Both the position numbers and the translations under genes were made by a program. 59,537 bases of DNA from a virus: positions 1 through 59,537 of IMG/VR virus record IMGVR_UViG_3300043640_000359, one strand, 5' to 3'. This document shows positions 1,284-25,292 of this stretch, piece after piece. The notes beneath the pieces are model-generated. The model had not been told where the DNA came from. It worked only from the letters and a program-made list of their open reading frames with translations, and made no database searches. Position 1 is the stretch's first letter. Each line of letters starts with the position of its first letter.

Positions 1284-1357
1284 CGGCGAGAGGCGACATG
1301 AGATTCGCAAGCCGCTCACCACCGGCCGCAGATGATCCCGCCTGAGGGAGCGCGGCC

Positions 1358-1390
1358 AACGGAACGAACGGAACAGACGGAACGGAACGG
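1358..1390 (+). promoter_or_regulatory. GGAACG-repeat leader, copy 1
   Basis: Four GGAAC words in a purine-rich run directly before the ATG at 1394. Related leaders precede genes at 12257, 12877, 13791, 14588, 15799 and 18808. It probably provides the ribosome binding site and perhaps a further RNA signal. Confidence 0.6.
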
Positions 1391-1393
1391 ACC

Positions 1394-1873
1394 ATGACCA
1401 CCAAGACCTTCGCCTTCAACATCACGTTCACCCGGCCGGACGAAAACGACGCCATCACCTACGTGGTCGGTCACAACGTGACAGCCGACACCCGCGAAGA
1501 GGCCGATATCAAGGTTCGCGTGGCCAACGACCACCTCACGGTGTCGAAGGTCGAGCTCTTCGCGGTGATGGACGAAGACGGCAACGTCCTGGAAACCATC
1601 CCCACGCACGCGGCCGTGATTGCCAAGGCCGTGGCCGACATGGAGGCCTGGCGCCACATCAACATCACGGCCATCGACGCCACCGGCACCTACCGCGCCA
1701 CGCAACTCTGGACCAACGCCGACAACCAGGACGAGGCGCTCGCCAAGCTGGAAGAGTGGCGCACTCGCACCGACGCCGCTGGCCGGCTCGAGATGGCCCT
1801 CATTGCCGACCGCACCACCGTCCGCCGCTTTGTGGCCACCCCCGACGGCACGCTGACCGAGGTGGGTCGATGA
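1394..1873 (+). CDS. Hypothetical early protein, first gene after P1
   Basis: A soluble 159-residue protein of alternating beta and helix character, without Cys and with no domain I recognise. It is the first gene behind promoter P1 and the longest GGAACG leader, so it is probably an immediate-early, strongly expressed product. The ATG follows the purine-rich leader by four bases. Its TGA stop overlaps the ATG of the next gene (ATGA at 1870), suggesting translational coupling. Early phage genes in this position often act on host functions, but nothing in the sequence shows that. Confidence 0.75.
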   Translation: MTTKTFAFNITFTRPDENDAITYVVGHNVTADTREEADIKVRVANDHLTVSKVELFAVMDEDGNVLETIPTHAAVIAKAVADMEAWRHINITAIDATGTYRATQLWTNADNQDEALAKLEEWRTRTDAAGRLEMALIADRTTVRRFVATPDGTLTEVGR

Positions 1874-2664
1874 ACCCCTTCATCACCTACGCCGTGGACG
1901 CGCGGGTTGACGGCCGGCGCGAGATCCTGGACATCCGCCTGGTAGACTACCGCATCAAGGAGGAAGGCGCGCTCCCCCTGGTGCGGGAGGCGCTGGCGAA
2001 ACTCGCCGGCACCGTGGAGCTCCTGGGCCTGATGGGACCCGACCGCCGCTACCTCCAGATTGCGGCCACGCTCGCCCTGACCGCCTTCTTAGCCGCCTGC
2101 GGGTCCAAGGGAGGTCCCACCGGCCCGACCCCTACGGCCGATACCCCCACGGCCACGCGCGCTGTAGCGAGCTTCTACACGCCCGGCCAATGCGCCGGCC
2201 AATGCCGGATAGACGCCGCGCTGGCCCTGGTGGACTACGTGCAGACCGGGGAGGCGCTGCCGTGGACATCCCAGCCAGCTGGCGCGTGGTTCCGCGCGCA
2301 AGGCTTGACGGTCGCCATCGTGACCTACGCGCCAGAGTTCAACATCGCCGCCGACTGCTGTGCCGACAACGTGCTGCACGTCGGGAGCAAAGGCTTAGGG
2401 CCCATCCTCAGCGACGGTGAGCTCGTCGCCACGGCCGCCACGCTGCTGCACGAGGCGCGCCACAAACAGTTCCCGCACTCCTGTGCCGATGCGCGCCGCG
2501 ACCGCACCGAAGCCGAGCTGGGTGCCTGGGGTGTGCAGACCACGTTCATGGAGTGGGTCGCCACCAAGAGCACGAACCTCTCCATGTCCGACGCCAGCCG
2601 CGCCGACATCCTCAGCTTCGTCAACACCATCCGTGGCTATCAGTTCTGTGGAGCCGGCCAATGA
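1870..2664 (+). CDS. Putative lipoprotein with HExxH metallopeptidase-like motif
   Basis: 264 residues from the ATGA-coupled start. Residues 61-77 form a hydrophobic segment ending in the lipobox LAAC (Cys77), then a Gly/Pro/Thr-rich linker. The body carries HEARH at 194-198, with acidic residues at 215 and 217 that could supply a third zinc ligand in gluzincin style, and paired Cys (108/112, 163/164, 205, 260) suggesting disulfides outside the cytoplasm. An internal ATG at 2032 (residue 55) would give a textbook lipoprotein signal peptide of 22 residues, so the first 54 residues may be a separate cytosolic piece or not translated. I infer a secreted, lipid-anchored zinc protein. Whether it cleaves peptides is unknown. 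Confidence 0.65.
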   Translation: MNPFITYAVDARVDGRREILDIRLVDYRIKEEGALPLVREALAKLAGTVELLGLMGPDRRYLQIAATLALTAFLAACGSKGGPTGPTPTADTPTATRAVASFYTPGQCAGQCRIDAALALVDYVQTGEALPWTSQPAGAWFRAQGLTVAIVTYAPEFNIAADCCADNVLHVGSKGLGPILSDGELVATAATLLHEARHKQFPHSCADARRDRTEAELGAWGVQTTFMEWVATKSTNLSMSDASRADILSFVNTIRGYQFCGAGQ

Positions 2665-3173
2665 TCTGCCACAACCCCACGTCGCTCCGCGGCGAATGTC
2701 CGATGATGTTCCATAGCTGCGGGGAGTGGGGTGGCACCGAGTGCCTGCATGCACCCAAGGAGACGACACCAATGCCTGAGATGAAGATCACCATTGCCTA
2801 CGCCGACGGCGTGGGACCACCACGCAGCCAGACCTTTACCCTCGACGAGGGCACCGTTGCGGCGCTCACGGCACCGCGTGTTCCGCATCACGAGTCCCGA
2901 GCCGAAGCGACGCAACGTATCACCGACTACCTGATGACGCGGCCACCCGCGCTTGAGCTCCATATGCAGGTGGGCGCGGTGCTCGACGCCATGTGGGTGT
3001 GCGGCTTCGAAGTGGCGCACCACGATGTCTACGGCAAGGCGCAACAGGAGGCCTACGCCCGCGGCCGCACCGACGCCACCCGCGACATCGCCAAGGCCGT
3101 GACCAAGCTCCTCGACGCCAGCTCGGTGGGTGAACTGACGCGTGTGTTGGAGAAGGGATTGGCCGGCAAATGA
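2661..3173 (+). CDS. Hypothetical protein with Cys-rich N-terminus
   Basis: 170 residues from an ATG coupled (ATGA) to the lipoprotein gene. The first 30 residues hold four Cys and two His and could bind zinc; the rest is soluble and helical. A second start, ATG 2772, has a good AAGGAG site (2757-2762) nine bases upstream and would give a 133-residue protein without the Cys-rich part. I keep the longer form because it leaves no gap in a densely packed operon, but both may be made. No known domain recognised. Confidence 0.65.
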   Translation: MICHNPTSLRGECPMMFHSCGEWGGTECLHAPKETTPMPEMKITIAYADGVGPPRSQTFTLDEGTVAALTAPRVPHHESRAEATQRITDYLMTRPPALELHMQVGAVLDAMWVCGFEVAHHDVYGKAQQEAYARGRTDATRDIAKAVTKLLDASSVGELTRVLEKGLAGK

Positions 3174-3445
3174 TCCAGGTGCTCCTCGTCGGCATCACCG
3201 TGTTGGTGGGCGTGCTGCTGGGTGGGTGGATGGGCGAGCAATACGCCGCACCCACGCTCCCACGGCCGCACCCTAACGACATCGCCATCCTCGAGACCAC
3301 CACCGTGCACCGCGGCTCCATTCACGTGGAGGCGCATATCGTGCGCGTGGGCAACGCCTGTCAGCTGGTGTGGAGCGAGCACACCACCACGGACGAGGGT
3401 GCCTACCCCCGCACGACCACGAGCTGGAGTGTGGCATGCCCATGA
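3170..3445 (+). CDS. Small membrane-anchored hypothetical protein
   Basis: 91 residues. Residues 2-22 are a strongly hydrophobic helix (signal anchor), followed by a beta-rich domain of about 65 residues with two Cys. It most likely sits in the inner membrane with its C-terminus outside. The start overlaps the previous stop (ATGA). The function is unknown. Confidence 0.7.
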   Translation: MIQVLLVGITVLVGVLLGGWMGEQYAAPTLPRPHPNDIAILETTTVHRGSIHVEAHIVRVGNACQLVWSEHTTTDEGAYPRTTTSWSVACP

Positions 3446-3807
3446 CGCTCGAGATTGGAAAATACTACCGGGACCGACAGGGCCATGCGTGGACCGTGCT
3501 GGATATCCACGTCGGTCAGTCCGGCACGCGCGTGACCGTCGCACGGTGGGACGCCGCCGTCTACCGCACACGGCTCTACCGCTGGGACGGCCGCTACGAC
3601 AACGTCGTAGAGGACCCCTGGGATCTGGTGGAGGAGTGCAAGCCGGTCGCTATCGAACCGGACGACGCACCAGAGCGACTGCGACGCAAGGCAAACCAGG
3701 AATGGGAGATGGCCGGTCTGGCGCGGCAAGACGGTGACACCAAGGCCGCGACGCAACACACACTCAGCGCGCGATGGTATGAACGTCAACTGAGCGAGCG
3801 TCAATGA
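3442..3807 (+). CDS. Hypothetical small soluble protein
   Basis: 121 residues: an N-terminal beta-rich half (GKYYRDRQGHAWTV, like small SH3-type barrels) and a charged helical C-terminal half. The ATG at 3442 overlaps the previous stop. An alternative ATG at 3436 has a GGAG at better spacing and would add two residues. No function assigned. Confidence 0.65.
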   Translation: MTLEIGKYYRDRQGHAWTVLDIHVGQSGTRVTVARWDAAVYRTRLYRWDGRYDNVVEDPWDLVEECKPVAIEPDDAPERLRRKANQEWEMAGLARQDGDTKAATQHTLSARWYERQLSERQ

Positions 3808-4154
3808 CGTTCGACGAACAGTCGGCGGCATGTGACCACGTGCCCTACATCCACGACGTGCTATCGAACCACTGGCAATGTCTCTGCGGCCAGACCTCGA
3901 CGCCTGTGACGACCGTCTGTCCGTCCGCTGTCTGCGTGCCATGCAAGGAGAAACGTATGAACTTGGTCGAAGGCGTGTTGGCCGAATGCACGCGGGTGCG
4001 CGCGTTGCTCCCGCTCTACGACGAGATCCCAACCGGCATCTTCGCGGCCACGATGATGCGCGCGTCCCTCGAGCGCGCCGACCAGGCCATTGGCTCGGGC
4101 GATGTCGTGGCCCTGCTCGCCATCTACGAAGATTTGAAAGGCTACACGGCATGA
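3804..4154 (+). CDS. Hypothetical protein: Cys-rich N-terminus plus helical C-terminal domain
   Basis: 116 residues. The first 50 contain six Cys and a few His in zinc-finger-like spacing. From Met52 (ATG 3957, preceded by AAGGAGA) the sequence is a helical module of about 65 residues ending in GDVVALLAIYEDLKGY, a type seen as a stand-alone protein in other phages. The gene may therefore yield two products from two starts. Coupled by ATGA to both neighbours. Confidence 0.65.
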   Translation: MTFDEQSAACDHVPYIHDVLSNHWQCLCGQTSTPVTTVCPSAVCVPCKEKRMNLVEGVLAECTRVRALLPLYDEIPTGIFAATMMRASLERADQAIGSGDVVALLAIYEDLKGYTA

Positions 4155-4684
4155 GCGCGCCGAACGGCTCCGGCATTCAACGCTTCAAGACCGCCACCAC
4201 GCTTGTGGTGCATTGGTGCATGGGTGCCATGATCGGCGCGGGCGTCCTCATTCCGGCCACGCCGCTGGCCCTGTACACGTTCGCCATTTTCGGCGCGCTG
4301 TATGTGGCCGGCCAACTGTTCATGGCGTTGGTGCTGGCCACCGAGCGCCGGCTCTACCCGCCACAACCCAAGCCGAAGCCGGCGCGCACGCACTGCCCGT
4401 ATTGTGGCATCGTGCAGCCACACACCGAGCTTGAGCGCCAGATGCTCACGCCCTACAAAGAGACGCGCGTCGATAGTCGCCCCGATAAGATTGTTCTAGC
4501 GTCGATGGGTGGTGTGCGATCGCACACAATTCCAATCGGCACACCGGATGGTGGACCGGAGACGATTGTGTCGTTCTTGCCCGAAGGTGGCGACGGATGT
4601 CCCAACTGTGGGAGTGTCGTGGGGTGGATTCACGGTGCCATCAAAACCTGCGGCCCATGCGGCCATCAGTGGAGGCTCTCGTGA
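4151..4684 (+). CDS. Membrane protein with zinc ribbon
   Basis: 177 residues. Two hydrophobic helices (about 19-38 and 45-65) are followed by a Pro/Lys linker. The cytosolic C-terminal domain has paired CXXC motifs (CPYC, CPNC, CGPC), a classic zinc ribbon layout. The zinc domain is tethered to the membrane, which would suit a host-takeover or membrane-docking role, but this is inference. ATGA and GTGA overlaps tie it to its neighbours. Confidence 0.7.
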   Translation: MSAPNGSGIQRFKTATTLVVHWCMGAMIGAGVLIPATPLALYTFAIFGALYVAGQLFMALVLATERRLYPPQPKPKPARTHCPYCGIVQPHTELERQMLTPYKETRVDSRPDKIVLASMGGVRSHTIPIGTPDGGPETIVSFLPEGGDGCPNCGSVVGWIHGAIKTCGPCGHQWRLS

Positions 4685-4866
4685 GCACCGGACCCGCGCC
4701 GTCCAGTCCGCAGGATGCCCTTCGCGCCAAGGTGTGGGAGCTCCACTCGATGGGCCTGAGCTATGCCTCCATTGCGGCACGTCTGCACCTCACGTGGCGC
4801 GACGCCAAGATACTGGTGCGTGAGGCACAGTCCAATCTCTACGACAACGGCCGGGTGAAGCCATGA
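4681..4866 (+). CDS. Small HTH-type putative DNA-binding protein
   Basis: 61 residues starting at GTG 4681 with GGAGG six bases upstream and a GTGA overlap with the previous stop. The core LHSMGLSYASIAARLHLTW fits a sigma-factor or resolvase-type helix-turn-helix (helix, SYASIAARL turn, recognition helix). Likely a small transcription regulator; no target can be named. Confidence 0.65.
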   Translation: MSTGPAPSSPQDALRAKVWELHSMGLSYASIAARLHLTWRDAKILVREAQSNLYDNGRVKP

Positions 4867-5309
4867 AGACATCAGAGAAACTTGCGTTCGTCAAGCGACA
4901 GTTGAAATCCTATCGGTCTCTCGCGCGCCGCTCCGGAAGCTTCCAGCAGTGGATTGAACTGAAGATGGGCGTGAGTCGGCTCACCGCCTCCGAGCTGATC
5001 CGCAAGGCCCGCATCGATCTCCGTATGGAGGAATGCGACGCGCCGCTCAACGCACGCTGTGTGCCGTTGATTGTGGAGCAGGAGAATCTTGCGCAAGCGG
5101 AACCCGTGAGCGACGACACGCAGGTCGACGTGGTCACGGTCAAGACCTTCACGCGCACGCTCTCGACGGCGACGTTGCGCGAGGCACTCTCGCTCCCACC
5201 GGACACCGTCTTCTACACTGAGGTGCCATCCGGAGGCGACTGGTCCGGCATGCGCATTGAACTCGGACGCGAGTGCACCCTCTACGCCACCTGGATCGAA
5301 CGCGAGTAG
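4863..5309 (+). CDS. Hypothetical protein with basic N-terminal helices
   Basis: 148 residues. The first 60 are basic and helical with an HTH-like pattern (MGVSRLTASELIRKARID). The rest is beta-rich with a C-terminal segment rich in aromatic and charged residues. It may be DNA-binding. ATGA overlap with the small HTH gene upstream. Confidence 0.65.
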   Translation: MKTSEKLAFVKRQLKSYRSLARRSGSFQQWIELKMGVSRLTASELIRKARIDLRMEECDAPLNARCVPLIVEQENLAQAEPVSDDTQVDVVTVKTFTRTLSTATLREALSLPPDTVFYTEVPSGGDWSGMRIELGRECTLYATWIERE

Positions 5310-5311
5310 CC

Positions 5312-5653
5312 ATGGCGTGGAAATACGTCATCATGCGCGTGGGCAACCGAGAGGTGCCAGTCCTCTTCCCAGAGAGCATGGTCCACGCGCATATGGCCGA
5401 GATGATGCAACTCTACTTTGCCACCGAGGCACAGTTTCTGGCGGGTGGTGTGCTCTCTACCGACGCCGTACGGAAGATTGCCGACAGTGTCACGGCAGCA
5501 AGTGCCGGCTCCTGCGAGGTGCGGGTGTTGGTGGCCCGCGACTCTGGTTCCGAGACGCTCGGGATCAAGAGTAGGTTCCACGACACGGCGGTCATCAACA
5601 TGCATCCTTACACCGGTGGCTACGTTGAGGACGAGGAGGATCCCAATGGGTAA
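5312..5653 (+). CDS. Hypothetical small protein
   Basis: 113 residues, mixed alpha/beta, beginning MAWKYVIMRVGNREVPVLFP, a strand-turn-strand opening common in small phage early proteins. It starts two bases after the previous stop and overlaps the next gene by eight bases. No function recognised. Confidence 0.65.
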   Translation: MAWKYVIMRVGNREVPVLFPESMVHAHMAEMMQLYFATEAQFLAGGVLSTDAVRKIADSVTAASAGSCEVRVLVARDSGSETLGIKSRFHDTAVINMHPYTGGYVEDEEDPNG

Positions 5654-5825
5654 CACACGCATCGTGGCGGCGCGCATCGTGGAGAAGGTGCTGGCGCACT
5701 TCGCAGATGACGACGAATATCTGGAGACGTTGAAGCGGCGCGAACCCGCCGAAGAGTTCGAACAGCTGCGCGAGGACCTCACCAACATCGTCGCCACCGA
5801 GATGGACGACCGTGTCATCTACTAA
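5646..5825 (+). CDS. Hypothetical small acidic helical protein
   Basis: 59 residues, nearly all helix, acidic and without Cys. The start overlaps the end of the previous gene by eight bases and its stop overlaps the next start. No function recognised. Confidence 0.6.
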   Translation: MGNTRIVAARIVEKVLAHFADDDEYLETLKRREPAEEFEQLREDLTNIVATEMDDRVIY

Positions 5826-6432
5826 CCGGTGGGGCATTGAACGAGAGGACCGCATCGCGCTCACGCACGACGAGGTGTTGAAGTATCTCGCCGCGCGACG
5901 GAGCCGGCCGCGGCCAAAGGAGGCGGTAGATATCCTGACGTGGCTGCGCGGCCGGTGGGTGTGTTCCGCGGCCCACGCCCGCACCCGACTCCAAGAAGCC
6001 GGCGTGGAATGGCAGACGGGCGTCGACGACGTCTGCATCCCCACGGCCGCGGTCCGGCCCAACGTCCTCCGAGACTGGGCGATTCTGGCTGCGGAGGTTG
6101 CCCTTAGCGGCCACGTCGACGACGCCGGTATGCTTCGCCTGGGCTTGGGCCGGCTCGCCAAGCAAGGCAATCTGGTGAGCCAGCGGGTCGAGGCGCTGGA
6201 AGCCGTGCTCGCCGCGGTATTGGCCGGTGACCCGCTGCGCTACAACGGCGAATATCCCGAGGCGACATGCGCCCACTGCGGCCGCACAGCCACCTACAAC
6301 GGCTTCAATGCACAGCCGCAATTCACGTTGACCCTACACGATCACAAGGAGGACTGTCCGTGGCGCCAGGCAAACGAAACGCTTCCGGTAACTACCCGGT
6401 TCTCGCCGTTGCGGTCTCGGCGAGCGAGGTGA
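5812..6432 (+). CDS. Hypothetical protein with C-terminal zinc ribbon
   Basis: 206 residues from GTG 5812. The N-terminal 130 residues are helical, with a winged-helix-like stretch (VDILTWLRGRWVCSAAHAR). The C-terminal part holds CAHC and a downstream HKEDC that would complete a zinc site. The last 70 bases overlap the next gene in another frame. Confidence 0.65.
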   Translation: MSSTNRWGIEREDRIALTHDEVLKYLAARRSRPRPKEAVDILTWLRGRWVCSAAHARTRLQEAGVEWQTGVDDVCIPTAAVRPNVLRDWAILAAEVALSGHVDDAGMLRLGLGRLAKQGNLVSQRVEALEAVLAAVLAGDPLRYNGEYPEATCAHCGRTATYNGFNAQPQFTLTLHDHKEDCPWRQANETLPVTTRFSPLRSRRAR

Positions 6433-6578
6433 TTGCCGGGATGAAGCTGTTCACCACCGATGGATGGCGCGAGGTGGCCGTCACGTTGATCGAAGACGGC
6501 GACGTCACCTTCACCTTCGAGGACGACGACGACACCTTCACGATTGAGAATCGTATGGTGATCGCGTCGATGTACTGA
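6360..6578 (+). CDS. Hypothetical small beta-rich protein
   Basis: 72 residues. GTG 6360 is chosen because a near-perfect Shine-Dalgarno, AAGGAGGA (6346-6353), lies six bases upstream inside the previous gene. The protein has strongly alternating strands and an acidic patch (EDDDDTF). No known domain. Confidence 0.6.
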   Translation: MAPGKRNASGNYPVLAVAVSASEVIAGMKLFTTDGWREVAVTLIEDGDVTFTFEDDDDTFTIENRMVIASMY

Positions 6579-6772
6579 TGGGACACTACGACGAACAATT
6601 CGCGGAACTCGATCGTCGCGCCGCGGAAGAGCAACGACGACGACGCGCGGTCGTGGCTGAGCACCTCCTCCTGGCGCACGAAGCGTTGCAGGACGTTGCG
6701 AAGAGCCGCGAGACGGCGCTCGTCGCTACGAAGATCGAGGAAGCACAGATGTGGTTGGAGCGCGCCAAGTGA
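6578..6772 (+). CDS. Possible Acb2/Tad1-type anti-defence hairpin protein
   Basis: 64 residues, predicted to form two long helices. The C-terminal pattern RETALVATKIEEAQMWLERA is very close in style to the end of Acb2/Tad1 helical-hairpin proteins (typically ...TKLEEAxMWLxxA), which sequester cyclic nucleotide signals of CBASS, Thoeris and type III CRISPR systems. The length (usually 65-100 residues in that family) and its place among early genes fit. This is family resemblance by eye only; the N-terminal half is generic charged helix. Confidence 0.45.
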   Translation: MGHYDEQFAELDRRAAEEQRRRRAVVAEHLLLAHEALQDVAKSRETALVATKIEEAQMWLERAK

Positions 6773-6948
6773 ACAACCAGCAGCTCGCTCAGTTGCTTGT
6801 CGACATCACCTCCGTGGCAGCATCGTTGCACGACCTCGTGGCGTGGATGCGTTACGAACTGAACATCGCGCTGTCGGTCATCGCCGCGTCGCTGGCTGTG
6901 ATGGCGGTGACGTTGGCCTTCAAACGGTTCCACGGCTATGACGACTAG
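6769..6948 (+). CDS. Small single-pass membrane protein
   Basis: 59 residues from GTG 6769 (GTGA overlap). An amphipathic N-terminal helix is followed by one transmembrane helix (about residues 31-50) and a short basic tail. The function is unknown. It sits directly after the Acb2-like candidate. Confidence 0.6.
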   Translation: MNNQQLAQLLVDITSVAASLHDLVAWMRYELNIALSVIAASLAVMAVTLAFKRFHGYDD

Positions 6949-7315
6949 GCCGCGCACACCGGGGTGGATTGTCCTCACGGGGTTGATCCTCGGGAGCTAC
7001 ACCGCGTTCATTGCCGGTCAGCGGCCGGACACGTGGTATCTGTACATCGGCATCCATGTCGTGGCGTCATGGGCCATGTTGCGGTGGTTCTTCGGTCCCG
7101 AGCCCACGCCAGTCCATCACTGCGACTGTGACTGTCATGGCGACGAGGACCGCGGCCACGCACCGGTGCTGCCACGACCGCTCATCACGCGTGCAGAGAT
7201 GGAACCGATCTGTGCGTGGGCACGGACACACTACGACATAGAGTTCACCGACGATCACCTAGCCCACTACGCCGACGCCATGGGCTTCCGCTACGTGCGA
7301 GAGGAGAAGACATGA
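6938..7315 (+). CDS. Two-helix membrane protein with Cys/His cluster
   Basis: 125 residues: hydrophobic helices at about 9-26 and 33-51, then HHCDCDCHGDED, a compact metal-binding-like cluster, and a soluble helical tail. It overlaps the previous gene by 11 bases. No family recognised. Confidence 0.65.
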   Translation: MTTRPRTPGWIVLTGLILGSYTAFIAGQRPDTWYLYIGIHVVASWAMLRWFFGPEPTPVHHCDCDCHGDEDRGHAPVLPRPLITRAEMEPICAWARTHYDIEFTDDHLAHYADAMGFRYVREEKT

Positions 7316-7887
7316 AGCTGACGTTCACGGTAACGATGGAGATCGACGATGCGGAGGTCGAGAAGAACAACACACGGCGCACGCGCCAGGGACGACAAGT
7401 GCTGTTGCCGCTCGACATTGCACGCGACGCGTTGGACCAGGGATGCCGACACAACTTCCACATTGCCTCGCACCGCATCGAAGAGGTGGACATGGGGATG
7501 GCCCGCGCGCCGCTGCCCAACGACAACCTCCTGTCGTTCGAACGGTTCACCAAGACGAACGTGGCCCGCTGCGAGGCGCACGCGCAGGCCATCACGGCGT
7601 GGGGACCCGATCAGTGGAGCAACGCCATGGCCGGCGAGACCGGTGAAGCCTGCAATCTCACCAAGAAGATGTCACGCATCTGGCCGGCCAACCAGTTCAA
7701 ACAGAGCTGGAACAAACCCGAGGACCAACGCATGGACACGTTGGTGCAGAAACTGAAACGCGAGATCGGCGATGTCGTCATCTACGCGGACCTGCTGGCC
7801 GTGCGCGTCAACCTCACGCTCGAGGATTGCGTGCGCACCAGCTTCAACGAGAAGTCAGCTGAGCTTGGTAGCGCTCATCTGCTGTAA
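7312..7887 (+). CDS. MazG-like nucleotide pyrophosphohydrolase
   Basis: 191 residues. The first 60 form a separate beta-rich segment. From about 85 on, the protein follows the all-alpha NTP pyrophosphatase pattern: [13 protein letters not shown] (metal-binding acidic pair) and later [16 protein letters not shown] (the conserved ExxD helix). Such enzymes cleave NTPs or dNTPs to monophosphate and pyrophosphate; phage versions are linked to dUTP/dCTP control or to lowering host ppGpp-type signals. The start ATG overlaps the previous stop. Substrate not determinable from sequence. Confidence 0.75.
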
Positions 7888-7918
7888 GCCGTTCACCCGC
7901 TACCATCGGAGAGGCACC

Positions 7919-8599
7919 ATGCAACGTAGAATCGTTTGGATCAGCGTGCTCGTCGCGGCGCTCTACACCGTCGGAGCTGGCGCACAGAGCAACCCGTTCA
8001 GTTCGCCGCAGACCAACAACCCGCCGTCGTGCACCACCTGCCCGGCCGGACCCAAGGGCGACAAGGGCGACCGCGGCTATCAGGGCGTGAAGGGCGACCC
8101 CGGCCCGAAGGGGTCTACCGGCCCACAAGGACCCGCAGGGCCACAAGGACCGGCCGGTCCTATGGGTCCTCAGGGTCCCGAAGGCGTGGGGCTTCCTGGG
8201 CCACAGGGACCGCAAGGACCTCCGGGATCGGCCACGCCGCTCAACCCGCCCACGGTGGACCCGCGCTTCGGCCATATCGACCGGCGCATTCCGCCGCTGG
8301 GCGCAATCGATGTCGTGGAAACCATCTGGCGCTTCGACACCGGCATCAACGACCTGATCATCATGTATCGCGGCGTGGACGCGACACCCACGCGCGCCGC
8401 ATCCCCAGGGATCGTGGCTGTGGTGGACAACAACCGACCCATCCCCTGCTACCAGATGATCAGTCGCGGTGGTGAAGGGGGACGTGTGTGGGATCGCATC
8501 AACCCGCACACCATCCGGCAGTTCAACTACTTCGACAACGAAACCGGCTACTGGTGCATCCTGCCGTGGGACGTCACGCTGCCCTGCACCCCGTTCTAA
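7919..8599 (+). CDS. Secreted collagen-like repeat protein
   Basis: 226 residues. A Sec signal peptide (basic MQRR, hydrophobic core to about 18, small residues AGA before the likely cut near 22) is followed by a Ser/Asn linker and about 20 Gly-X-Y triplets (44-103, one register break near residue 90). A C-terminal domain of about 120 residues has two Cys pairs (37/40 or 41 and 186/213). Collagen-like phage proteins are usually tail fibres without signal peptides; here the gene lies among early genes and has one, so the product is probably exported, perhaps as a trimer. The RBS GGAGAGG lies seven bases upstream. Confidence 0.75.
8048..8227 (+). repeat. Gly-X-Y coding repeat
   Basis: Nine-base units encode about 20 collagen-type triplets rich in GPQ, GPA and GPK. 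One residue is missing near position 8187, which shifts the Gly register once. Such tracts are prone to length change. Confidence 0.8.
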
Positions 8600-8607
8600 G
8601 AAAGGAT

Positions 8608-8787: not shown

Positions 8788-8836
8788 GCTCTATACTAGA
8801 GCGTGAACCGTCCACTCGGATACAGAAGGAGCGCAA

Positions 8837-12153: not shown

Positions 12154-12175
12154 GAATCACCACTGATAATTTCTG

Positions 12176-12220
12176 TTGCACACGGTGGTGATTTGAGCGA
12201 TAATAGTTTTCGTTGGCGGC
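12176..12220 (+). promoter_or_regulatory. Early promoter P2
   Basis: -35 TTGCAC at 12176-12181, 17-base spacer, -10 GATAAT at 12199-12204. The spacer word GGTGGTGATTTGAG and the downstream word TTTCGTTGGCGGC are shared with P3, and most of them with P1. A GGAACG-type leader follows at 12236. Confidence 0.8.
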
Positions 12221-12235
12221 ATTCAGCCGCGGCGA

Positions 12236-12254
12236 AACGAACGGAGCGGAACGA
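12236..12254 (+). promoter_or_regulatory. GGAACG-repeat leader, copy 2
   Basis: AACGGAGCGGAACG before ATG 12257; GGAG lies ten bases from the start codon. Same element as at 1358. Confidence 0.6.
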
Positions 12255-12256
12255 CA

Positions 12257-12802
12257 ATGGCGATCACCAAGACGGTCTTCAGCAACCTCGAAATCGGAAC
12301 CAAGTTCACCCTGGCGGACGAGACCGTCGAGCATGTGAAGGTTGCAGAGACGCGCGGGTCCTACACGGACCTCAATGGCAAGCCGGCAACGGCGCACATC
12401 AAAAAGACCGCCGTGGTGAGCGTGTTCCGGCCCGACCCGACACCCGAGGAGCTTGCCGCGCAACAGGACCGCTGGGTGCGGCGCTTCTTCAAGAGCGAGA
12501 TCGAGAGCACGCTTGAGATCATCCAGAAGTTCAAGGACAATCTGGAGCAGAACCCGGCCTACGCCTTCGAGTGGTGCGACCTCGCCGCGGAAGCTGCGGC
12601 CAAGATGGACACCTACGTTCGCTTGCAGTCGCTCTACGAGGACCAGGGTCTGGACGTCACCTACAACGAGGCGATGAAGATGGCGTTGCAGAACGCCAAG
12701 TATCCCTCGCGCTCCACCAGCGTGATGACCAACTACGCCAAGGAGTGCAAGACCGCCGCGTTCGCGGAGTTCGCGGAGAAGTTCGCGCCGCGCAACCGCT
12801 AA
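12257..12802 (+). CDS. Hypothetical protein, first gene after P2
   Basis: 181 residues. The first 60 form a beta-rich unit that could be a small barrel; the rest is helical and charged, with a Lys/Ala/Phe-rich end. It has its own strong promoter and leader, so it is expected to be abundant early. No family recognised. Confidence 0.7.
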   Translation: MAITKTVFSNLEIGTKFTLADETVEHVKVAETRGSYTDLNGKPATAHIKKTAVVSVFRPDPTPEELAAQQDRWVRRFFKSEIESTLEIIQKFKDNLEQNPAYAFEWCDLAAEAAAKMDTYVRLQSLYEDQGLDVTYNEAMKMALQNAKYPSRSTSVMTNYAKECKTAAFAEFAEKFAPRNR

Positions 12803-12847
12803 TTCTCTACCCCGGCCGGGTTGCCTCTGGACCCGGCCACGCTTCTC

Positions 12848-12872
12848 AACGGAACGGAACGACCGGAGCGAC
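12848..12872 (+). promoter_or_regulatory. GGAACG-repeat leader, copy 3
   Basis: Two GGAAC words plus GGAG, eight bases before ATG 12877. No promoter of the P1-P3 type lies between this gene and the previous one, so the leader is not just part of the promoter cassette. Confidence 0.55.
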
Positions 12873-12876
12873 CGCC

Positions 12877-13689
12877 ATGATCCCCGACGAGACCAACAAA
12901 GACGCCGCACGACAGAAGGTGATCGACCGCTTGGCGAAACTGAAGCGCCATGCCGAGAGCGCCGAGAAGATTGGCAGCGAAGCGGAGGCACAAGCCTTCG
13001 CGGCCATGGTCCAACAGTTGCTGCTGAAGCACAACCTGGACATGACCGATCTCGAATACGAGGCCACGGTCGACGCCGAGCCGGTGGGTGTCCACTACAT
13101 CAACTACGCCAAGCATCCGCGCGTGAAGATCCGCCACACCCGCGTGCTGTGGATCGAACAGCTGGCCGGCGTCATCGCGCGTGCCCATCACTGCAGGATA
13201 CTGACGCATAGCGGCACGTCGCGGGTATCGTTGATCGGGCGGAAAAGCAACTGCGAGATCGCCGAGTATATGTTCGTGGTGATGCAACGCCAGATGGAAC
13301 GCATCAGCCACGCCGCGTGGTGGGCCGCACATCGCGAGCGACTCAAGAACGGCCTGACCAACGAAGACGCCCGCGCCGAGCTACTCGGCTTCCGCTCCGC
13401 CTTCCTCTCCGGCTTCATCGCGCGCTTGGAAGAGCGCTACAACGAAGAGCGCCGCACTACCGAGCAGAGCTACAGCAGCGGATGGGCGCTGATGCGGCTG
13501 GACATGAAGCCGGTGGACGACTTCATCGAGGCGCAGCATAAGAGCAAGAACTTCGGTACGGCCGGTCGCCTGACCCGCCGCGTGTCGACACACGCCGAAG
13601 GCCATCGTGCCGGCCGCAACGCGGCGGACGACGCCATCCTCAAAGCCAAGGCCATGAAAGACGGAGGTGCCAAAAAGCTCACCGAATAG
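12877..13689 (+). CDS. DUF2786/DUF7168 domain protein
   Basis: 270 residues. Residues 13-60 match the DUF2786 pattern (KVIDRLAKLKRHAES, then EAEAQAFAAMVQQLLLKHNL). The following domain of about 170 residues with many aromatics and basic residues is of the type usually paired with it in phage and plasmid genes (DUF7168). The molecular role is unknown; the family is common in early regions and on mobile elements. The start is fixed by the GGAACG leader. Confidence 0.8.
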   Translation: MIPDETNKDAARQKVIDRLAKLKRHAESAEKIGSEAEAQAFAAMVQQLLLKHNLDMTDLEYEATVDAEPVGVHYINYAKHPRVKIRHTRVLWIEQLAGVIARAHHCRILTHSGTSRVSLIGRKSNCEIAEYMFVVMQRQMERISHAAWWAAHRERLKNGLTNEDARAELLGFRSAFLSGFIARLEERYNEERRTTEQSYSSGWALMRLDMKPVDDFIEAQHKSKNFGTAGRLTRRVSTHAEGHRAGRNAADDAILKAKAMKDGGAKKLTE

Positions 13690-13705
13690 GGTGGTAAAAT
13701 ACATG

Positions 13706-13752
13706 TTGACACCCGGTGGTGATTTGAGAGACAATGAGTTTCGTTGGCGGCG
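13706..13752 (+). promoter_or_regulatory. Early promoter P3
   Basis: Consensus -35 TTGACA at 13706-13711, 18-base spacer, -10 GACAAT at 13730-13735. Followed by TTTCGTTGGCGGC as in P2. An ATG at 13734 lies inside the -10 region and therefore cannot be the start of the next gene. Confidence 0.8.
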
Positions 13753-13772
13753 ATGAGGGCGACGACACACAG

Positions 13773-13788
13773 AACGGAACGGAGACGA
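13773..13788 (+). promoter_or_regulatory. GGAACG-repeat leader, copy 4
   Basis: AACGGAACGGAGACG before ATG 13791, with GGAG six bases from the start codon. It decides the start at 13791. Confidence 0.55.
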
Positions 13789-13790
13789 AC

Positions 13791-14066
13791 ATGTTGGCAC
13801 TCACACTCAAGATCAACGGCATCGACCACAACGGCTTCACCGGCCGCACCTTGCATCCCACCGACGACATGATCGGCCAGGACGCTCAGGTGATGAAGAT
13901 GGAGCAGTTCTGCGAGAGCGGCGAACCAATGCAGCCGGCCAACGACAGTCAGAACCACGGCATGTATCCCTACACCGTGTTTCTCGCGCAACTGTCCGAC
14001 GGCCGCTTGGTGGAGCTGATCGATACCGAGATCGAAGTCGTCGTGTGCCAGGAGCAGGTGTACTAG
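13791..14066 (+). CDS. Hypothetical protein, first gene after P3
   Basis: 91 residues, beta-rich and acidic with two Cys. The start is fixed by the P3 cassette and leader. Its promoter position predicts high early expression. No family recognised. Confidence 0.7.
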   Translation: MLALTLKINGIDHNGFTGRTLHPTDDMIGQDAQVMKMEQFCESGEPMQPANDSQNHGMYPYTVFLAQLSDGRLVELIDTEIEVVVCQEQVY

Positions 14067-14068
14067 TC

Positions 14069-14281
14069 ATGGCACGCGCCGGGGTCCAGAGCGGAGAGAC
14101 GGAGGTCGTGGTCGTGGACTACGCCTCCCTCCGGTGCCCACAGTGCCGCACGCCGTTGCAGGTGCTGCGCAATGTGGAGGTCGAGTTGCCGGCGGAGCGG
14201 TATAGCTGGGAGCACGAGAGCCGCCGCTTCCGCACCCGCAGCACGGTGTTGGTGTGCCCGAGTTGCGAACACGCGGAGTAG
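14069..14281 (+). CDS. Small zinc-ribbon protein
   Basis: 70 residues: CPQC near residue 23 and CPSC near residue 65, separated by a beta-rich loop, a standard zinc-ribbon layout. The ATG lies two bases after the previous stop. Confidence 0.65.
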   Translation: MARAGVQSGETEVVVVDYASLRCPQCRTPLQVLRNVEVELPAERYSWEHESRRFRTRSTVLVCPSCEHAE

Positions 14282-14293
14282 GGAGGACAACCA

Positions 14294-14512
14294 GTGGATG
14301 AACTCGAAGCGGTGAAGCTTGTGGGTCGGTTGATTCGTGCAACGAGCGAGAGCACGAAGGCCGTCAACGGTATGCGACGCGGCGAGAAGAGTTGCGCCAA
14401 GGAGGAATTTGCGGCAGCGAAGGCAGTGCTGCGAGAGCTGATCGGTGCTAACCGGAAGTGGAAGCCCGACACTGGTTTGGATGCACTAACGCACGAAGCG
14501 TTGCGCGGCTAG
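14294..14512 (+). CDS. Hypothetical small helical protein
   Basis: 72 residues, all helix, Lys/Ala-rich. GTG start with GGGAGG eight bases upstream. No function recognised. Confidence 0.6.
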   Translation: MDELEAVKLVGRLIRATSESTKAVNGMRRGEKSCAKEEFAAAKAVLRELIGANRKWKPDTGLDALTHEALRG

Positions 14513-14565
14513 AACTTCGGTGTTGCCAAACGGAAGTGGTTGAGCGAAACTAAGCGTCCCGATAG

Positions 14566-14587
14566 GACGAACGGAGCGAACGGAACG
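14566..14587 (+). promoter_or_regulatory. GGAACG-repeat leader, copy 5
   Basis: GGACGAACGGAGCGAACGGA and then ACG directly before ATG 14588. It supports that ATG over an upstream TTG at 14540. Confidence 0.55.
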
Positions 14588-14764
14588 ATGGCGACCAAGC
14601 GGAGAACCTTCACATGTCCCGAGTGCGGCCAGAGCTACGACAGCAGAGCGCCGCGCGTGCAGTGCAAGAGCGCGCAACACGAGGACCGCGTCGTGCCGTG
14701 CAACCTGAAGTCGCTGCAACCGCTGCGCGACCGCGTGGCACCGTTGCCACCCACTCGGGTCTAA
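14588..14764 (+). CDS. Small zinc-finger protein
   Basis: 58 residues. CPEC at 11-14, then Cys, His and Cys (C..H....C), would bind one zinc. The ORF opens with a GGAACG leader. The next 76 bases up to 14842 hold no obvious gene. Confidence 0.6.
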   Translation: MATKRRTFTCPECGQSYDSRAPRVQCKSAQHEDRVVPCNLKSLQPLRDRVAPLPPTRV

Positions 14765-14841
14765 CGCTTCGGCTGCATCCGTTTCCGTTCCGCGGCGTGC
14801 TCCGACTCTACCCGAGTCCCGTGCACCCCGGCACCCTGGTG

Positions 14842-15735
14842 ATGTGTGTGACGCGGATCACCTGCTCGAGCAACGGCGGCATGCACACCGCGCACGAGAG
14901 TCACACGGCGGTGGCGCGGCAAGACTGGGAGGCAATGAAACGGTTGGGCTGCGTGTGGTGGAATCGCCAGACGCAGCGATGGGAACGCGAATGGCCGCTG
15001 GCCTTGTGGGGATACGACGTGGCGCAGTATCGCGCCGCGCAAGATGGGCACCTCCCGTGGCGAGAGATCGCACCCCACCCAACGGCCGCAACGATTTGTG
15101 TCGAGGAGTTTTACCAAGCTGCCGGCGCGCGTGGCGTAGCGCCTCAGTCGCGGAAACAAACGGGAGCCGATCGAGTAGGCTCCGAGTGGGAACGGACCGC
15201 ACCATCGAACCCGGCTCCCGTTCCGCGAACAACCAACACGGCCACTTCAAGAGGAGAAGGCACCATGGTCACGAAGAAGAAAGCGAAGTCCCCGAAGAGC
15301 GCCGCGCGTGCGGCGAAGAAGGCCGCGAAGAAGACGGCAACCGCCACCACGGCCGCAGCCGGCGGACGCAACTGGAACCAGAGCTACAAGTATCTGAAGT
15401 CGCCGGGCGACACGGGTGCCGAGACCAGCAACCGCTACGCCGTGTTCACGGCCATCAAGGAGCTCCGCTCGGGCACTGCCGACGAGATCGCCAAGGCCGC
15501 GGTGAAGGCCGGCCTGGAGACCACGCAGGACGCCCGGTCGCAGACCATGATCTTCCTGCGGCAGTTTGCGGCCGAAGGGTCGGTCGAGGTCGTGCGGTCC
15601 ACCAAGGCCAAGGCCGAGGCCACGCCGGCCGTCGAGAAGGCTCCCAAAGCGACGACCGCCAAGCCGCGTGTCCGCCTGAGGGTCGCCAAGAAGAAGACCA
15701 AGGCGGACCAGGCAGAGGCTCCGGCGACGACCTAG
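14842..15735 (+). CDS. DUF5710-like segment in frame with a basic winged-helix-like protein
   Basis: One uninterrupted frame of 297 residues made of two unlike parts. Residues 14-60 resemble DUF5710 (a short motif, DWEAMKRLGCVWWNRQTQRW). A weakly structured linker follows. From Met142 (ATG 15265) there is a 156-residue unit: a Lys/Ala-rich histone-like N-terminus (AARAAKKAAKK), a winged-helix-like core of about 70 residues (NRYAVFTAIKELRSGTADEI) and a second Lys/Ala/Pro-rich tail. ATG 15265 has an excellent ribosome site, so the C-terminal part is certainly made on its own; the long form is less sure. The C-terminal product looks like a nucleoid-type DNA-binding protein. Confidence 0.55.
   Translation: MCVTRITCSSNGGMHTAHESHTAVARQDWEAMKRLGCVWWNRQTQRWEREWPLALWGYDVAQYRAAQDGHLPWREIAPHPTAATICVEEFYQAAGARGVAPQSRKQTGADRVGSEWERTAPSNPAPVPRTTNTATSRGEGTMVTKKKAKSPKSAARAAKKAAKKTATATTAAAGGRNWNQSYKYLKSPGDTGAETSNRYAVFTAIKELRSGTADEIAKAAVKAGLETTQDARSQTMIFLRQFAAEGSVEVVRSTKAKAEATPAVEKAPKATTAKPRVRLRVAKKKTKADQAEAPATT
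15249..15267 (+). promoter_or_regulatory. Strong internal ribosome binding site and start
   Basis: AAGAGGAGAAGG followed by CACC and ATG 15265. This site marks the start of a separate 156-residue basic DNA-binding protein (15265-15735) inside the longer frame. Confidence 0.7.
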
Positions 15736-15775
15736 GCTGGACAGCTCCGGGAACCCTCCTGGGCTAGCAAGCAAC

Positions 15776-15797
15776 CGGAACGGAACGGAGCGATCGG
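15776..15797 (+). promoter_or_regulatory. GGAACG-repeat leader, copy 6
   Basis: CGGAACGGAACGGAGCGATC before ATG 15799, GGAG eight bases from the start. Confidence 0.55.
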
Positions 15798-15798
15798 G

Positions 15799-16041
15799 AT
15801 GGTGCTACTACGTCGTCGCAAGAAGAAGGTGAAGTCGACCGGGGACGCGACCCCGCAACGCCGGTCGATTCTCACCATGACCTTTCGCTACTCCACAGAC
15901 GCGCGCATCGGGTTGGGAGCGGAGCTCGGCAAAGAGCCGGGTGAGTATGTGTGGGAGCCGGTCATGGCCGACCACATTCGTACAATCGTCAACGCAGAAG
16001 TGACGCGCCTGGAAGCGCGCGCACGAAAGGTGAAGCGATGA
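15799..16041 (+). CDS. Hypothetical small basic protein
   Basis: 80 residues with a Lys/Arg-rich N-terminus (LLRRRKKKVK) and a helical C-terminus. Preceded by a GGAACG leader. ATGA overlap with the next gene. Function unknown. Confidence 0.6.
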   Translation: MVLLRRRKKKVKSTGDATPQRRSILTMTFRYSTDARIGLGAELGKEPGEYVWEPVMADHIRTIVNAEVTRLEARARKVKR

Positions 16042-16283
16042 GACTCCTCCTACACATGTGTGTCGTCGTGCTGTGGACCGCGGCGGCGATCGGTCTCGCG
16101 TTTCAGGTTGCGGTGAACTGGCCCACACGGCCGGTGATGTCGCTGATCTGCGCGATCGGATTTCTCGCGGTGATCTCGCAACTGCGGATCACGGCGGATC
16201 GAGTGCCGATGGGTTGGGAGCAACGGCTCCCTCTCGACAGTGAACGGAAGTGGATGTTCGTGCAACGCGATCGGAGCCTGTGA
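16038..16283 (+). CDS. Small two-helix membrane protein
   Basis: 81 residues, two hydrophobic helices (about 5-25 and 31-48) and a basic cytosolic tail. It overlaps both neighbours by one to four bases. Function unknown. Confidence 0.6.
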   Translation: MRLLLHMCVVVLWTAAAIGLAFQVAVNWPTRPVMSLICAIGFLAVISQLRITADRVPMGWEQRLPLDSERKWMFVQRDRSL

Positions 16284-16510
16284 TGAGCGACCTGCAGAGA
16301 ATGAACGGTGTCGTGCGCACCGTGGTATCGGACCGCGGCTTTTTCTTCATCCGCGCCGAGAACGGGGTGGACTACTTCGCGCACATGGAAGACCTGGTCG
16401 ACGCCGGCAACGTGCGCGTGGAGATCAACACACGTCTCTCGTTCACCGCCACGCAGACCGGTAAGGGTCCGCGCGCACGACAGGTGGAAGCGTTTTCGGC
16501 CGCGGAGTAG
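16283..16510 (+). CDS. Cold-shock domain protein (CspA-like)
   Basis: 75 residues. GVVRTVVSDRGFFFIR and DYFAHMEDL align with the RNP1 (KGFGFI) and RNP2 (DVFVH) motifs of the five-stranded cold-shock OB fold, with the usual length of about 70. Cold-shock proteins bind single-stranded RNA and act as RNA chaperones or antiterminators. RNP1 is altered (RGFFFI) but keeps aromatics. It stands just before the helicase gene. Confidence 0.85.
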   Translation: MSDLQRMNGVVRTVVSDRGFFFIRAENGVDYFAHMEDLVDAGNVRVEINTRLSFTATQTGKGPRARQVEAFSAAE

Positions 16511-16512
16511 CC

Positions 16513-17880
16513 ATGCGCACTCTCTACCCGCACCAGCAAGAAGCGCTTGCCTACGCCGGCTCCCGCTCGGCCATCGCGCTCTACATGCAGATGCGCTTGG
16601 GCAAGAGCACCGTCGCCATGCGATGGCTCAAGGGGATTGGCGCGAGTCGTGTGCTACTGGTGGCACCGGGACCCACACACTACGACTGGGCCGACGAAGC
16701 CGCGCGGGAGGCGTGGGGCGTGCTGTCGCTTACCGAGTTGAAGAAGGAACAGCGCGTTCCGGCGATTGTGGCACAGCGGCGCGACGATGACATTCTCTTC
16801 ACCATCCATTACGAAGGTCTCCGTGTGCATCCCCAGTTACTGAACCTGGACTGGGACGCTATCGTCCTCGACGAGAGCACACGCATTCGCAACCCGAAGG
16901 CCGCGATCACGAAGCTGCTCATCCGCAAATCCGCGCACATCCCCAACCGCGCGCTGCTCAGCGGTGAGCCGGCACCCGAAGGCCCGTTGGACTACTTCGC
17001 GCAGTCCTGTTTCCTGGTCGGGCACTTCATGGGCTACGATAACTTCTGGGCGTTCCGCCAGAAGAAGATGCATCAAACCTTTGCCGCATGGGCGTGGTCG
17101 CCGAACAAAGGCGTCAACGACGAGATCCGCACCTTCATGCACGACATGGCGTTCTTCAAGACGCGCAAGCAAGCCGGCCTGGCGAGCAAGACCGTGAAGC
17201 AACGCCGTATGATCGAGCTCGATCCCGTGCAGAAACGCTACCTGCGCGAGCTGAAGAAGGATCTCGAGATTCAAGACCTCGACGTGTCCACCAAGTTCAC
17301 CGTCGCCACACAGGCGTGGATGCAGAAGATTGCCGGTGGCTTCGCGCCAGACGCGGCCGGCACTTTGATTTCGAATGCCAAGACGGACGAGCTGATCCGA
17401 CTCCTGCAGGGAGAACTGAAACGTGAGAAGGTCGTGGTGTGGTTCAACTACAACCATGAACTGAAGCACGTGTTCTACGAGCTGCGCAAGAAGGGCATCA
17501 CATGCACACGCCTGAGCGGCCAGACACCGCGCGCCAAGCGTCGCGGCCGGATCGAAAAGTTTCGCGGGACGAACTACCAAGTTATCTTGGTGCAGTTGCG
17601 GCTGGGTTTGTTTGGCTTGGACCTCTCAGTGGCGGATACGGCCGTCTACTACTCGAACTCCTACGAATACGAGGTGCGCTCGCAGAGCATCGAGCGTATC
17701 GAGCACATGCGGAAGATCAAAGCCGGCGTAACCACGCTAGTGATTGACCTCGTGACCAAGGGCACCACCGACGAAGATGTCGTGGCCGCGCTCAACGACA
17801 AACAGATGACGGCCAAGAAGTTCAAGCAGCGGCTCGCCATCCGCACTATGGAACGCATTCGTCCGGGACGTGCCGCATGA
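16513..17880 (+). CDS. SNF2-like superfamily 2 helicase
   Basis: 455 residues. Starts with the Q-motif-like YPHQQEAL; motif I is MRLGKST (27-33, equivalent to GxGKT), motif II is DEST (120-123), and motif III is in the LLSGEPAPEGPLDYFAQ stretch. The second RecA domain has VVVWFNYNHELKHVF, LSGQTPRAKR, a motif V (LRLGLFGLDL) and a motif VI-like RSQSIERIEHMRK. Phage SNF2-type proteins of this length are thought to remodel replication forks or remove proteins from DNA. GGAG lies upstream of the ATG. ATGA overlap with the next gene. Confidence 0.85.
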   Translation: MRTLYPHQQEALAYAGSRSAIALYMQMRLGKSTVAMRWLKGIGASRVLLVAPGPTHYDWADEAAREAWGVLSLTELKKEQRVPAIVAQRRDDDILFTIHYEGLRVHPQLLNLDWDAIVLDESTRIRNPKAAITKLLIRKSAHIPNRALLSGEPAPEGPLDYFAQSCFLVGHFMGYDNFWAFRQKKMHQTFAAWAWSPNKGVNDEIRTFMHDMAFFKTRKQAGLASKTVKQRRMIELDPVQKRYLRELKKDLEIQDLDVSTKFTVATQAWMQKIAGGFAPDAAGTLISNAKTDELIRLLQGELKREKVVVWFNYNHELKHVFYELRKKGITCTRLSGQTPRAKRRGRIEKFRGTNYQVILVQLRLGLFGLDLSVADTAVYYSNSYEYEVRSQSIERIEHMRKIKAGVTTLVIDLVTKGTTDEDVVAALNDKQMTAKKFKQRLAIRTMERIRPGRAA

Positions 17881-18131
17881 CCATCACCGTGAGAGAGCAA
17901 GTGTTCGAGTTCATCGAGACGCATCCGTTCCTGACGGCGTGGAAGATCTCGTCCGCGCTCGGACTGAAGTCCAGCACCGTGTCGTCGGTGTTGCGGAAGG
18001 AGTGGGAGCGTGGTCGCATCGAGCGGTGCCTGGTGGACTCGCCTGGTGTCCCGATCCGCGGCTCGCTGACACCGGTCGAGAAGAGCTCCGGCGCGATGTA
18101 CTACTTCCCCGCGCAAGCGCCATGGCGGTGA
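17877..18131 (+). CDS. Winged-helix transcription regulator
   Basis: 84 residues. VREQVFEFIETHPFLTAWKI followed by SALGLKSSTVSSVLRKEWERGRIER is a standard winged helix-turn-helix (MarR/ArsR-like) with wing and a short C-terminal strand. Likely a phage regulator acting on DNA. ATGA overlap with the helicase gene. Confidence 0.75.
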   Translation: MTITVREQVFEFIETHPFLTAWKISSALGLKSSTVSSVLRKEWERGRIERCLVDSPGVPIRGSLTPVEKSSGAMYYFPAQAPWR

Positions 18132-18451
18132 GGCGCAAGCGTCCGCGGCCGGTCGTCATTCCGCCGTCGCGGTTTCGCTGCCAGTGTGTGGGCTGTCGCA
18201 ACTTGGTTCCGTTCGAGAGGTTCACGTGCCACGAGTGCTTCCTGTTTTGCCGGCCACCACAACGCGTCTCCGACGGACACCGAAGGTTTCGGCTCAACGC
18301 TACCTGGGGATCGACCCCGGCCTTACAGGCACAGGCATCGCCTCGATCGAAATCACCGGGGACGGTGTTGAGATTCTCGACGCGCGTGTCTACGTCCCCA
18401 AGCGTAAATACGAGTGGACCGGCCGCGCGATCCTCGTCGCCAGAGAGGTAG
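18122..18451 (+). CDS. Zinc-finger frame overlapping the resolvase gene (uncertain)
   Basis: 109 residues from ATG 18122. The first 55 look protein-like: a basic start, then CQCVGC and CHECFLFC, a clear double Cys knuckle. Beyond about base 18290 the frame runs antiphase through the resolvase gene and loses protein character. Three explanations: a real overlapping gene, an N-terminal zinc finger of the resolvase joined by a -1 frameshift, or a one-base assembly error. Confidence 0.35.
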   Translation: MAVRRKRPRPVVIPPSRFRCQCVGCRNLVPFERFTCHECFLFCRPPQRVSDGHRRFRLNATWGSTPALQAQASPRSKSPGTVLRFSTRVSTSPSVNTSGPAARSSSPER

Positions 18452-18795
18452 CCGAGGCGTGGCGGGACATGGGCCGCAACTACACCGGTGCCATGTGGTG
18501 CGCGGTGGAGATGACGGAGTTCTTTGCTGCGGCACATCGCGCCATGGGATGGAAGACGGGCGACCTCCAGCGGCTGACGTTCCTCTGCGGGTCGATCTAC
18601 ACGGCGCTGGCACAAGAAGATGGTGACGCCTTTACCACCATGGTGCGGACGTCGGAGTGGAAGGGCAACCTCTCGAAAGAGCAAACGATTCGCCGGCTCC
18701 AGCGCACACTCGGCCGCGCGCTGGAACCACACGACGTGCAAACGCATGCGTGGGATGCACTCGGCATCGCGATGTGGAAAGCCGGCCGGTTCTAA
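18226..18795 (+). CDS. RuvC-like Holliday junction resolvase
   Basis: 189 residues. YLGIDPGLTGTGIA carries the first catalytic Asp (residue 30), CAVEMTEFF supplies the Glu, and the C-terminal THAWDALGIAMW supplies the last acidic pair of the RNase H fold. It would resolve branched DNA before packaging and in recombination. GTG 18226 is chosen because GAGAGG lies six bases upstream. An earlier GTG at 18184 adds 14 residues. See the overlapping zinc-finger frame at 18122. Confidence 0.8.
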   Translation: MPRVLPVLPATTTRLRRTPKVSAQRYLGIDPGLTGTGIASIEITGDGVEILDARVYVPKRKYEWTGRAILVAREVAEAWRDMGRNYTGAMWCAVEMTEFFAAAHRAMGWKTGDLQRLTFLCGSIYTALAQEDGDAFTTMVRTSEWKGNLSKEQTIRRLQRTLGRALEPHDVQTHAWDALGIAMWKAGRF

Positions 18796-18807
18796 CGGAG
18801 CGGAACG
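18794..18807 (+). promoter_or_regulatory. GGAACG-type leader, copy 7
   Basis: AACGGAGCGGAACG abuts ATG 18808; GGAG is seven bases from the start. Confidence 0.5.
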
Positions 18808-25268: not shown

Positions 25269-25292
25269 ATCGGGTCTGACGGCGGTGTAATG

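Follow-up and report, generated by a model that had tools for sequence, protein, structure and literature searches.

A tandem repeat with an embedded Shine-Dalgarno core precedes the start codons of seven early genes in an uncultured phage

Repeat leaders at the starts of early genes

Seven early genes of an uncultured tailed phage are each preceded by a purine-rich run of CGGAA and CGGAG units, mixed with CGAA, that lies immediately 5' of the ATG. This leader is a real, non-random element that is associated with start codons and specific to the coding strand. Judged from its sequence, it most likely serves control of the translation start rather than an RNA-protein switch.

The window analyzed here is the whole of IMG/VR record IMGVR_UViG_3300043640_000359, which comprises 59,537 bases and is a tailed-phage genome of an uncultured bacterial virus. 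Its ends are near-identical (1-259 and 59279-59537, with 3 mismatches in 259 bp and no exact terminal repeat), which indicates that the record probably wraps around and represents a nearly complete, circular-mapping genome. The + strand from 1394 to about 30,048 carries early and replication genes (helicase, RuvC-like resolvase, thymidylate synthase, Sak4-like annealase, DNA polymerase and primase), and the - strand carries the structural genes (portal, major head protein and terminase). An Rfam search of the window gave no match. Long acidic/lysine low-complexity repeats (GAA/GAC runs) occupy positions 24834-25038 within gene 24375-25268, and a perfect GC-rich hairpin of 15 bp (25290-25325, z about -5.9) is found directly 5' of gene 25346.

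A preliminary description of this DNA reported repeat runs before the starts at 1394, 12257, 12877, 13791, 14588, 15799 and 18808, and all seven were recovered where it had placed them. The leaders, and a gene from the same region that is discussed below, are as follows.

1358..1393, + strand, leader of gene 1394: AACGGAACGAACGGAACAGACGGAACGGAACGGACC; 6 CG[GA]A units, no T, no GGAG (GGA only)
12233..12256, + strand, leader of gene 12257: GGAG 10 nt before the ATG
12848..12876, + strand, leader of gene 12877 (DUF2786/DUF7168): GGAG 8 nt before the ATG; no promoter of the shared type
13773..13790, + strand, leader of gene 13791: GGAG 6 nt before the ATG
14567..14587, + strand, leader of gene 14588: GGAG 11 nt before the ATG
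15775..15798, + strand, leader of gene 15799: CCGGAACGGAACGGAGCGATCGGG; GGAG 8 nt before the ATG; no promoter of the shared type
18793..18807, + strand, leader of gene 18808: AACGGAGCGGAACG; GGAG 7 nt before the ATG; no promoter of the shared type
16283..16510, + strand, gene for a cold-shock-domain protein (CSD by Pfam, 2.4e-7): no leader of its own

Every copy is on the coding strand, and the last repeat unit ends 0-9 nt 5' of the ATG. Leaders are confined to the early + strand arm with its non-structural genes, with zero in the late - strand arm. The weakest, that of 18808, has 2 units. For genes 13791 and 18808 we take the start codon to which the leader points, in place of the 13734 and 18868 picked by a simple gene finder; position 13734 falls within the -10 box of promoter P3 (listed below). 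The first codons that follow the leaders of 12257, 14588 and 1394 are alike (ATGGCGATCACCAAG, ATGGCGACCAAG and ATGACCACCAAG, respectively), hinting that the copied unit may extend into the gene.

The repeat had been described as a GGAACG hexamer. The repeat itself stands, but its period is mostly 5 (CGGAA CGGAA CGGAG) and not 6: the unit is five bases long with irregular insertions, and Tandem Repeats Finder returns periods of 5, 9 and 14. Length and unit order vary among the leaders, and the core AACGGAGCGRACG has one exact match and two with one mismatch, matches with up to two mismatches being not clearly above chance.

With a motif definition that was chosen after the data were seen, GGARCGGARCG has 6 matches in the genome, all 6 within leaders and on the coding strand, where 0.39 are expected and none of 100 shuffles reaches 6. 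The top five spots of GGARCG coverage on the + strand of the whole window each abut a start (1394, 14588, 12877, 15799 and 12257). At least three CG[GA]A units within 36 nt upstream are found at 6 of the 51 + strand starts, against 0.4-0.53 expected and a maximum of 5 in 20,000 random sets. The motif is thus not equally common at random positions, a test that the preliminary description had proposed, but favors starts (6 against 0.53 expected). When the starts were moved by 30-300 nt, only 0-1 kept three or more units and the excess was gone. GGAACG by itself is only mildly over-represented in the window (61 versus 46.6 expected), and the signal therefore lies in its clustering.

Shine-Dalgarno core and sequence context

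One GGAG lies 6-11 nt before the ATG in six of the seven leaders, near the spacing at other genes (mostly 5-8 and 10 nt), and a Shine-Dalgarno (SD) core is therefore embedded in the repeat. The suggestion that each run contains a GGA or GGAG is borne out in this form, the leader of 1394 having GGA only. It also proved correct that the repeats exceed a simple ribosome site, since they include the SD core and extend beyond it.

The leaders occupy intergenic gaps of 12-806 nt, at which there is no coupling, and many other early starts overlap the preceding gene and have no leader. The early genes 3957, 6360 and 15265 have gaps, yet use a plain AGGAG or AAGGAG. The single best SD is no stronger in leaders (-6.5 versus -7.5 kcal/mol, p = 0.25). 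Anti-SD contact sites are more numerous, with a mean of 3.7 against 2.4 at other starts (one-sided p = 0.0008); these extra contacts were rejected as a special property, as shuffled leaders have about as many and base composition suffices. Leaders are depleted in T (2.0 versus 6.4 per 36 nt, p = 1e-4). Start regions are not significantly more open in leader genes than in other genes (opening energy 13.4 versus 16.3 kcal/mol, p = 0.13), and the 12257 leader is rather closed by this measure.

Shared promoters and upstream hairpins

A promoter pattern, TTG-N4-6-CGG-N4-G-R-TT(T)-GAG, has exactly four matches in the window, all four before leader genes, where 0.01 are expected.

1238..1267, + strand, promoter P1: TTGCCA ... 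CATACT, before gene 1394
12176..12204, + strand, promoter P2: TTGCAC ... GATAAT, before gene 12257
13706..13735, + strand, promoter P3: TTGACA ... GACAAT, before gene 13791
14523..14551, + strand, promoter P4: a more diverged copy, TTGCCA-N17-GAAACT with CGG...GTTGAG, before gene 14588

Four of the seven leaders thus follow a shared promoter, not three as first counted, as P4 at 14523 precedes 14588. The proposal that the leader is independent of the promoter is upheld, as 12877, 15799 and 18808 have a leader without the shared promoter; the leader is therefore tied to the start codon and not to the promoter. Where a promoter is present, the distance from its TTG to the ATG is 65-156 nt. Over 42 nt, P2 and P3 share 86% identity, which shows that pieces of this kind have been duplicated. 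Adjoining the -35 box of P1 is an inverted repeat, TTATTTC-gaccctcta-tGAAATAA (1209-1232), with another TTATTTCGACCC about 40 nt upstream; the arrangement looks like a candidate operator for P1 only.

GC-rich hairpins of differing sequence end just 5' of four leaders (1394, 12257, 12877 and 15799), with single z-scores down to about -3, including the following.

1324..1357, + strand, GC-rich hairpin: ends exactly at the start of the 1394 leader
12814..12838, + strand, perfect 9-bp hairpin with no T run: between gene 12257 and the 12877 leader
15736..15772, + strand, hairpin: between gene 15265 and the 15799 leader

A hairpin before every leader was rejected as a general rule, being clear in four of the seven, with a joint seven-site p of 0.01-0.13 that varies with segment length. 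The hairpins are suggestive, and we treat them as a lead only.

Distribution in relatives and other genomes

Near relatives were sought with the phage DNA, the leader-gene proteins and the promoter sequence among phage records and IMG/VR, and none was found. Distant relatives have the replication module in common, and profile searches with the primase and the helicase gave 32 and 53 loci, all from distant relatives. One distant relative, G001 (55 kb), encodes the cold-shock protein, helicase, RuvC, polymerase and primase in collinear order, with identities of 37-59%. A primase profile search of genome contigs found no relative, and hence gave no host prediction.

In about 1.4 Mb of loci from relatives the leader does not occur as a recurrent element, and GGARCGGARCG-N0-16-ATG has 4 stray matches in 49 whole contigs of relatives, compared with 6 in the window alone. 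An element conserved across the phage family was accordingly rejected, the leader being missing from the loci or contigs of about 50 related phages apart from those stray matches. The preliminary description had held that relatives keeping the genes should keep the motif. This did not prove to be so in the relatives compared: all five distant relatives with a DUF7168 gene of the 12877 type lack the leader and have a plain SD, a comparison that covers this gene, the other leader genes having no homolog in the relatives' fetched loci. Absence from relatives that keep the DUF7168 gene argues that the leader is lineage-specific and no ancient conserved element. A few relatives have start-linked words of their own, some of which, such as GGAGGTG, are merely longer SDs. 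In the relative L051 (IMGVR_UViG_3300020213_000303) the word is GGAGTCC, of which 14 copies are present (1.8 expected) and 6 precede predicted starts.

Beyond the relatives, 41 further viral stretches contain CGGAACGGAACGGA-N2-15-ATG. In about a dozen of them it could plausibly serve as a start leader, having an SD-like core and preceding an open frame of at least 100 codons (L110, L120, L122, L126, L129 and others), always one per locus; in the unrelated phages L110, L122, L126 and L129, (CGGAA)n-CGGAG lies directly 5' of genes. From these isolated look-alikes, the CGGAA/CGGAG sequence seems to arise repeatedly around an SD. Of the phages examined, this one alone has seven such leaders in its genome. 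A host-wide type of leader was rejected: among about 85,000 bacterial and archaeal genomes, 75 stretches contain the 17-mer CGGAACGGAACGGAGCG exactly, with the matches scattered over phyla and mostly off starts. Two viral contigs (L106, 11088-11561, and L111, 557-1030) have in common an array of GGAACGGAACGGATGGAACGG tandem repeats away from a gene start.

Proposed mechanism and alternatives

We favor, with somewhat better than even confidence, the reading that each run is an extended, SD-containing ribosome-binding site for ordinary translation initiation, which would multiply weak anti-SD contacts in a U-poor leader. One SD core (GGAG, 6-11 nt before the ATG) would sit inside a short array of near-copies (CGGAA and CGAA), and the array would act at translation initiation of early genes that are unable to rely on coupling from an upstream gene. 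Several overlapping weak contacts with the anti-SD could make the array a landing strip for 30S subunits, and with so little U there may be less pairing and cleavage around the start; we infer a benefit to recruitment or stability on these grounds. An in vitro selection study, which also describes AC-repeat enhancers of SDs, gives some support to the multi-contact idea (PMC3310771). Leaders may have spread within the genome by duplication of promoter and leader pieces followed by drift of the units, and the look-alike leaders of unrelated phages are consistent with such leaders having arisen from an SD more than once.

The main rival is that the repeat is a neutral by-product, in which an SD leader was copied along with promoter pieces, or grew by slippage of CGGAA, and the extra units are idle. 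The irregular units (period 5, 9 and 14), the recent copies P2 and P3, the absence of the repeat from relatives and a number of contacts equal to that of shuffled composition would all fit, but such a by-product is not expected to fall at seven separate sites, in one orientation and at starts only, with no copies elsewhere. Three leaders moreover lack promoter copies, and the arrangement of units varies among sites, so that simple recent copying cannot explain them all; we consider this reading possible but rather doubtful. It is unlikely that the leaders are regulatory sites for an RNA-binding protein or RNase that reads GGA or GGAG (CsrA/Rsm, T4 RegB or an unknown phage protein) and switches the early genes on or off jointly. 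Each leader has several GGAs, the element is common to early genes only, and T4 RegB cleaves GGAG in early translation initiation regions (PMC3014915). However, the phage is without CsrA by a search whose controls matched, and a search for RegB in the phage gave no match, though no positive control matched either. The strong RegB consensus GGAGRAYARAA (PMC3014915) is unlike GGAGCGGAACG, and in predicted folds the GGAs are not consistently in hairpin loops.

Other readings have less in their favor. If GGARCG units paired with a second site on 16S rRNA besides the anti-SD, the array might hold the 30S subunit at early genes and boost them over host mRNAs. The 16S rRNA of E. coli does have a single CGUUCC (1378-1383) to which GGARCG is able to pair, in the case of GGAGCG with one G-U. 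This pairing was rejected: no 16S site is preferred in common by the seven leaders, and by chance a 6-mer would find a match within 1.5 kb about a third of the time. We judge such an enhancer quite unlikely. A DNA-level element, such as a binding site or transcription signal, would suit the four leaders that lie shortly downstream of a shared promoter, but is very unlikely given the single orientation, the occurrence of leaders without a promoter, and a distance that is fixed to the ATG and not to the promoter (65-156 nt from TTG to ATG). Least probable of all is that the phage cold-shock protein binds the leaders. Its gene at 16283 does carry the CSD and does lie in the same early region, as had been pointed out, but has no leader. 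Bacterial cold-shock domains prefer pyrimidine- or U-rich single strands. The protein is retained next to the same helicase in G001/L008, with a weak homolog in L036, and neither G001/L008 nor L036 has a leader; the proposed link to the leaders is unsupported and fails, as the protein's best match is in a relative that lacks them.

Comparison with known systems

Start-associated sequences of phages have been noted since 2011, mostly in actinobacterial phages, and their role is not known. The SAS of Cluster K mycobacteriophages (GGGATAGGAGCCC, PMC3203893) is likewise a repeated asymmetric sequence at the position of the ribosome-binding site, found before many non-structural genes with ATG starts. 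Both elements combine an SD core with additional bases that are not complementary to 16S rRNA, and both are lineage-specific; SAS is essentially absent from host genomes, and the 17-mer here is rare in bacterial and archaeal genomes. SAS is, however, a fixed, highly conserved 13-mer, whereas the present leader is a variable-length run of degenerate five-base units of unrelated sequence. SAS is also conserved before homologous genes of related phages, and the five distant relatives with a DUF7168 gene lack the leader. The 17-bp imperfect inverted repeats of ESAS, found upstream of SAS, have no counterpart in a shared inverted repeat here, where there are only suggestive hairpins. Since two defining features of SAS, the fixed 13-mer and conservation in relatives, do not apply, we say that the leader appears to work like SAS, not that it is SAS.

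In Microbacterium Cluster EF phages, SAS-like motifs (GGGAAAGGACCCC; PMC7302621) occur ten times in a genome, at the same position and in the same style, with an unrelated sequence. They are, however, fixed 13-mers that show no more than one mismatch, are linked to an ESAS upstream and are not tandem. They show that the start-associated habit recurs in phages. With ordinary SD sites the leaders share GGAG at 6-11 nt (six of seven), while elsewhere in this phage, and in its relatives, a gene has one AGGAG or GGAGG with no flanking copies. T4 RegB sites also have GGAG within early translation initiation regions, but their strong-site consensus is absent from the leaders (PMC3014915).

What is new here is a tandem, SD-embedding, start-associated repeat in an uncultured phage unrelated to these. 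Its array is short enough that reporter assays could directly show whether near-copies flanking an SD increase initiation. Together with the look-alikes elsewhere, the repeat suggests that a ribosome-binding-site "dialect" for early genes evolves separately in different phage lineages.
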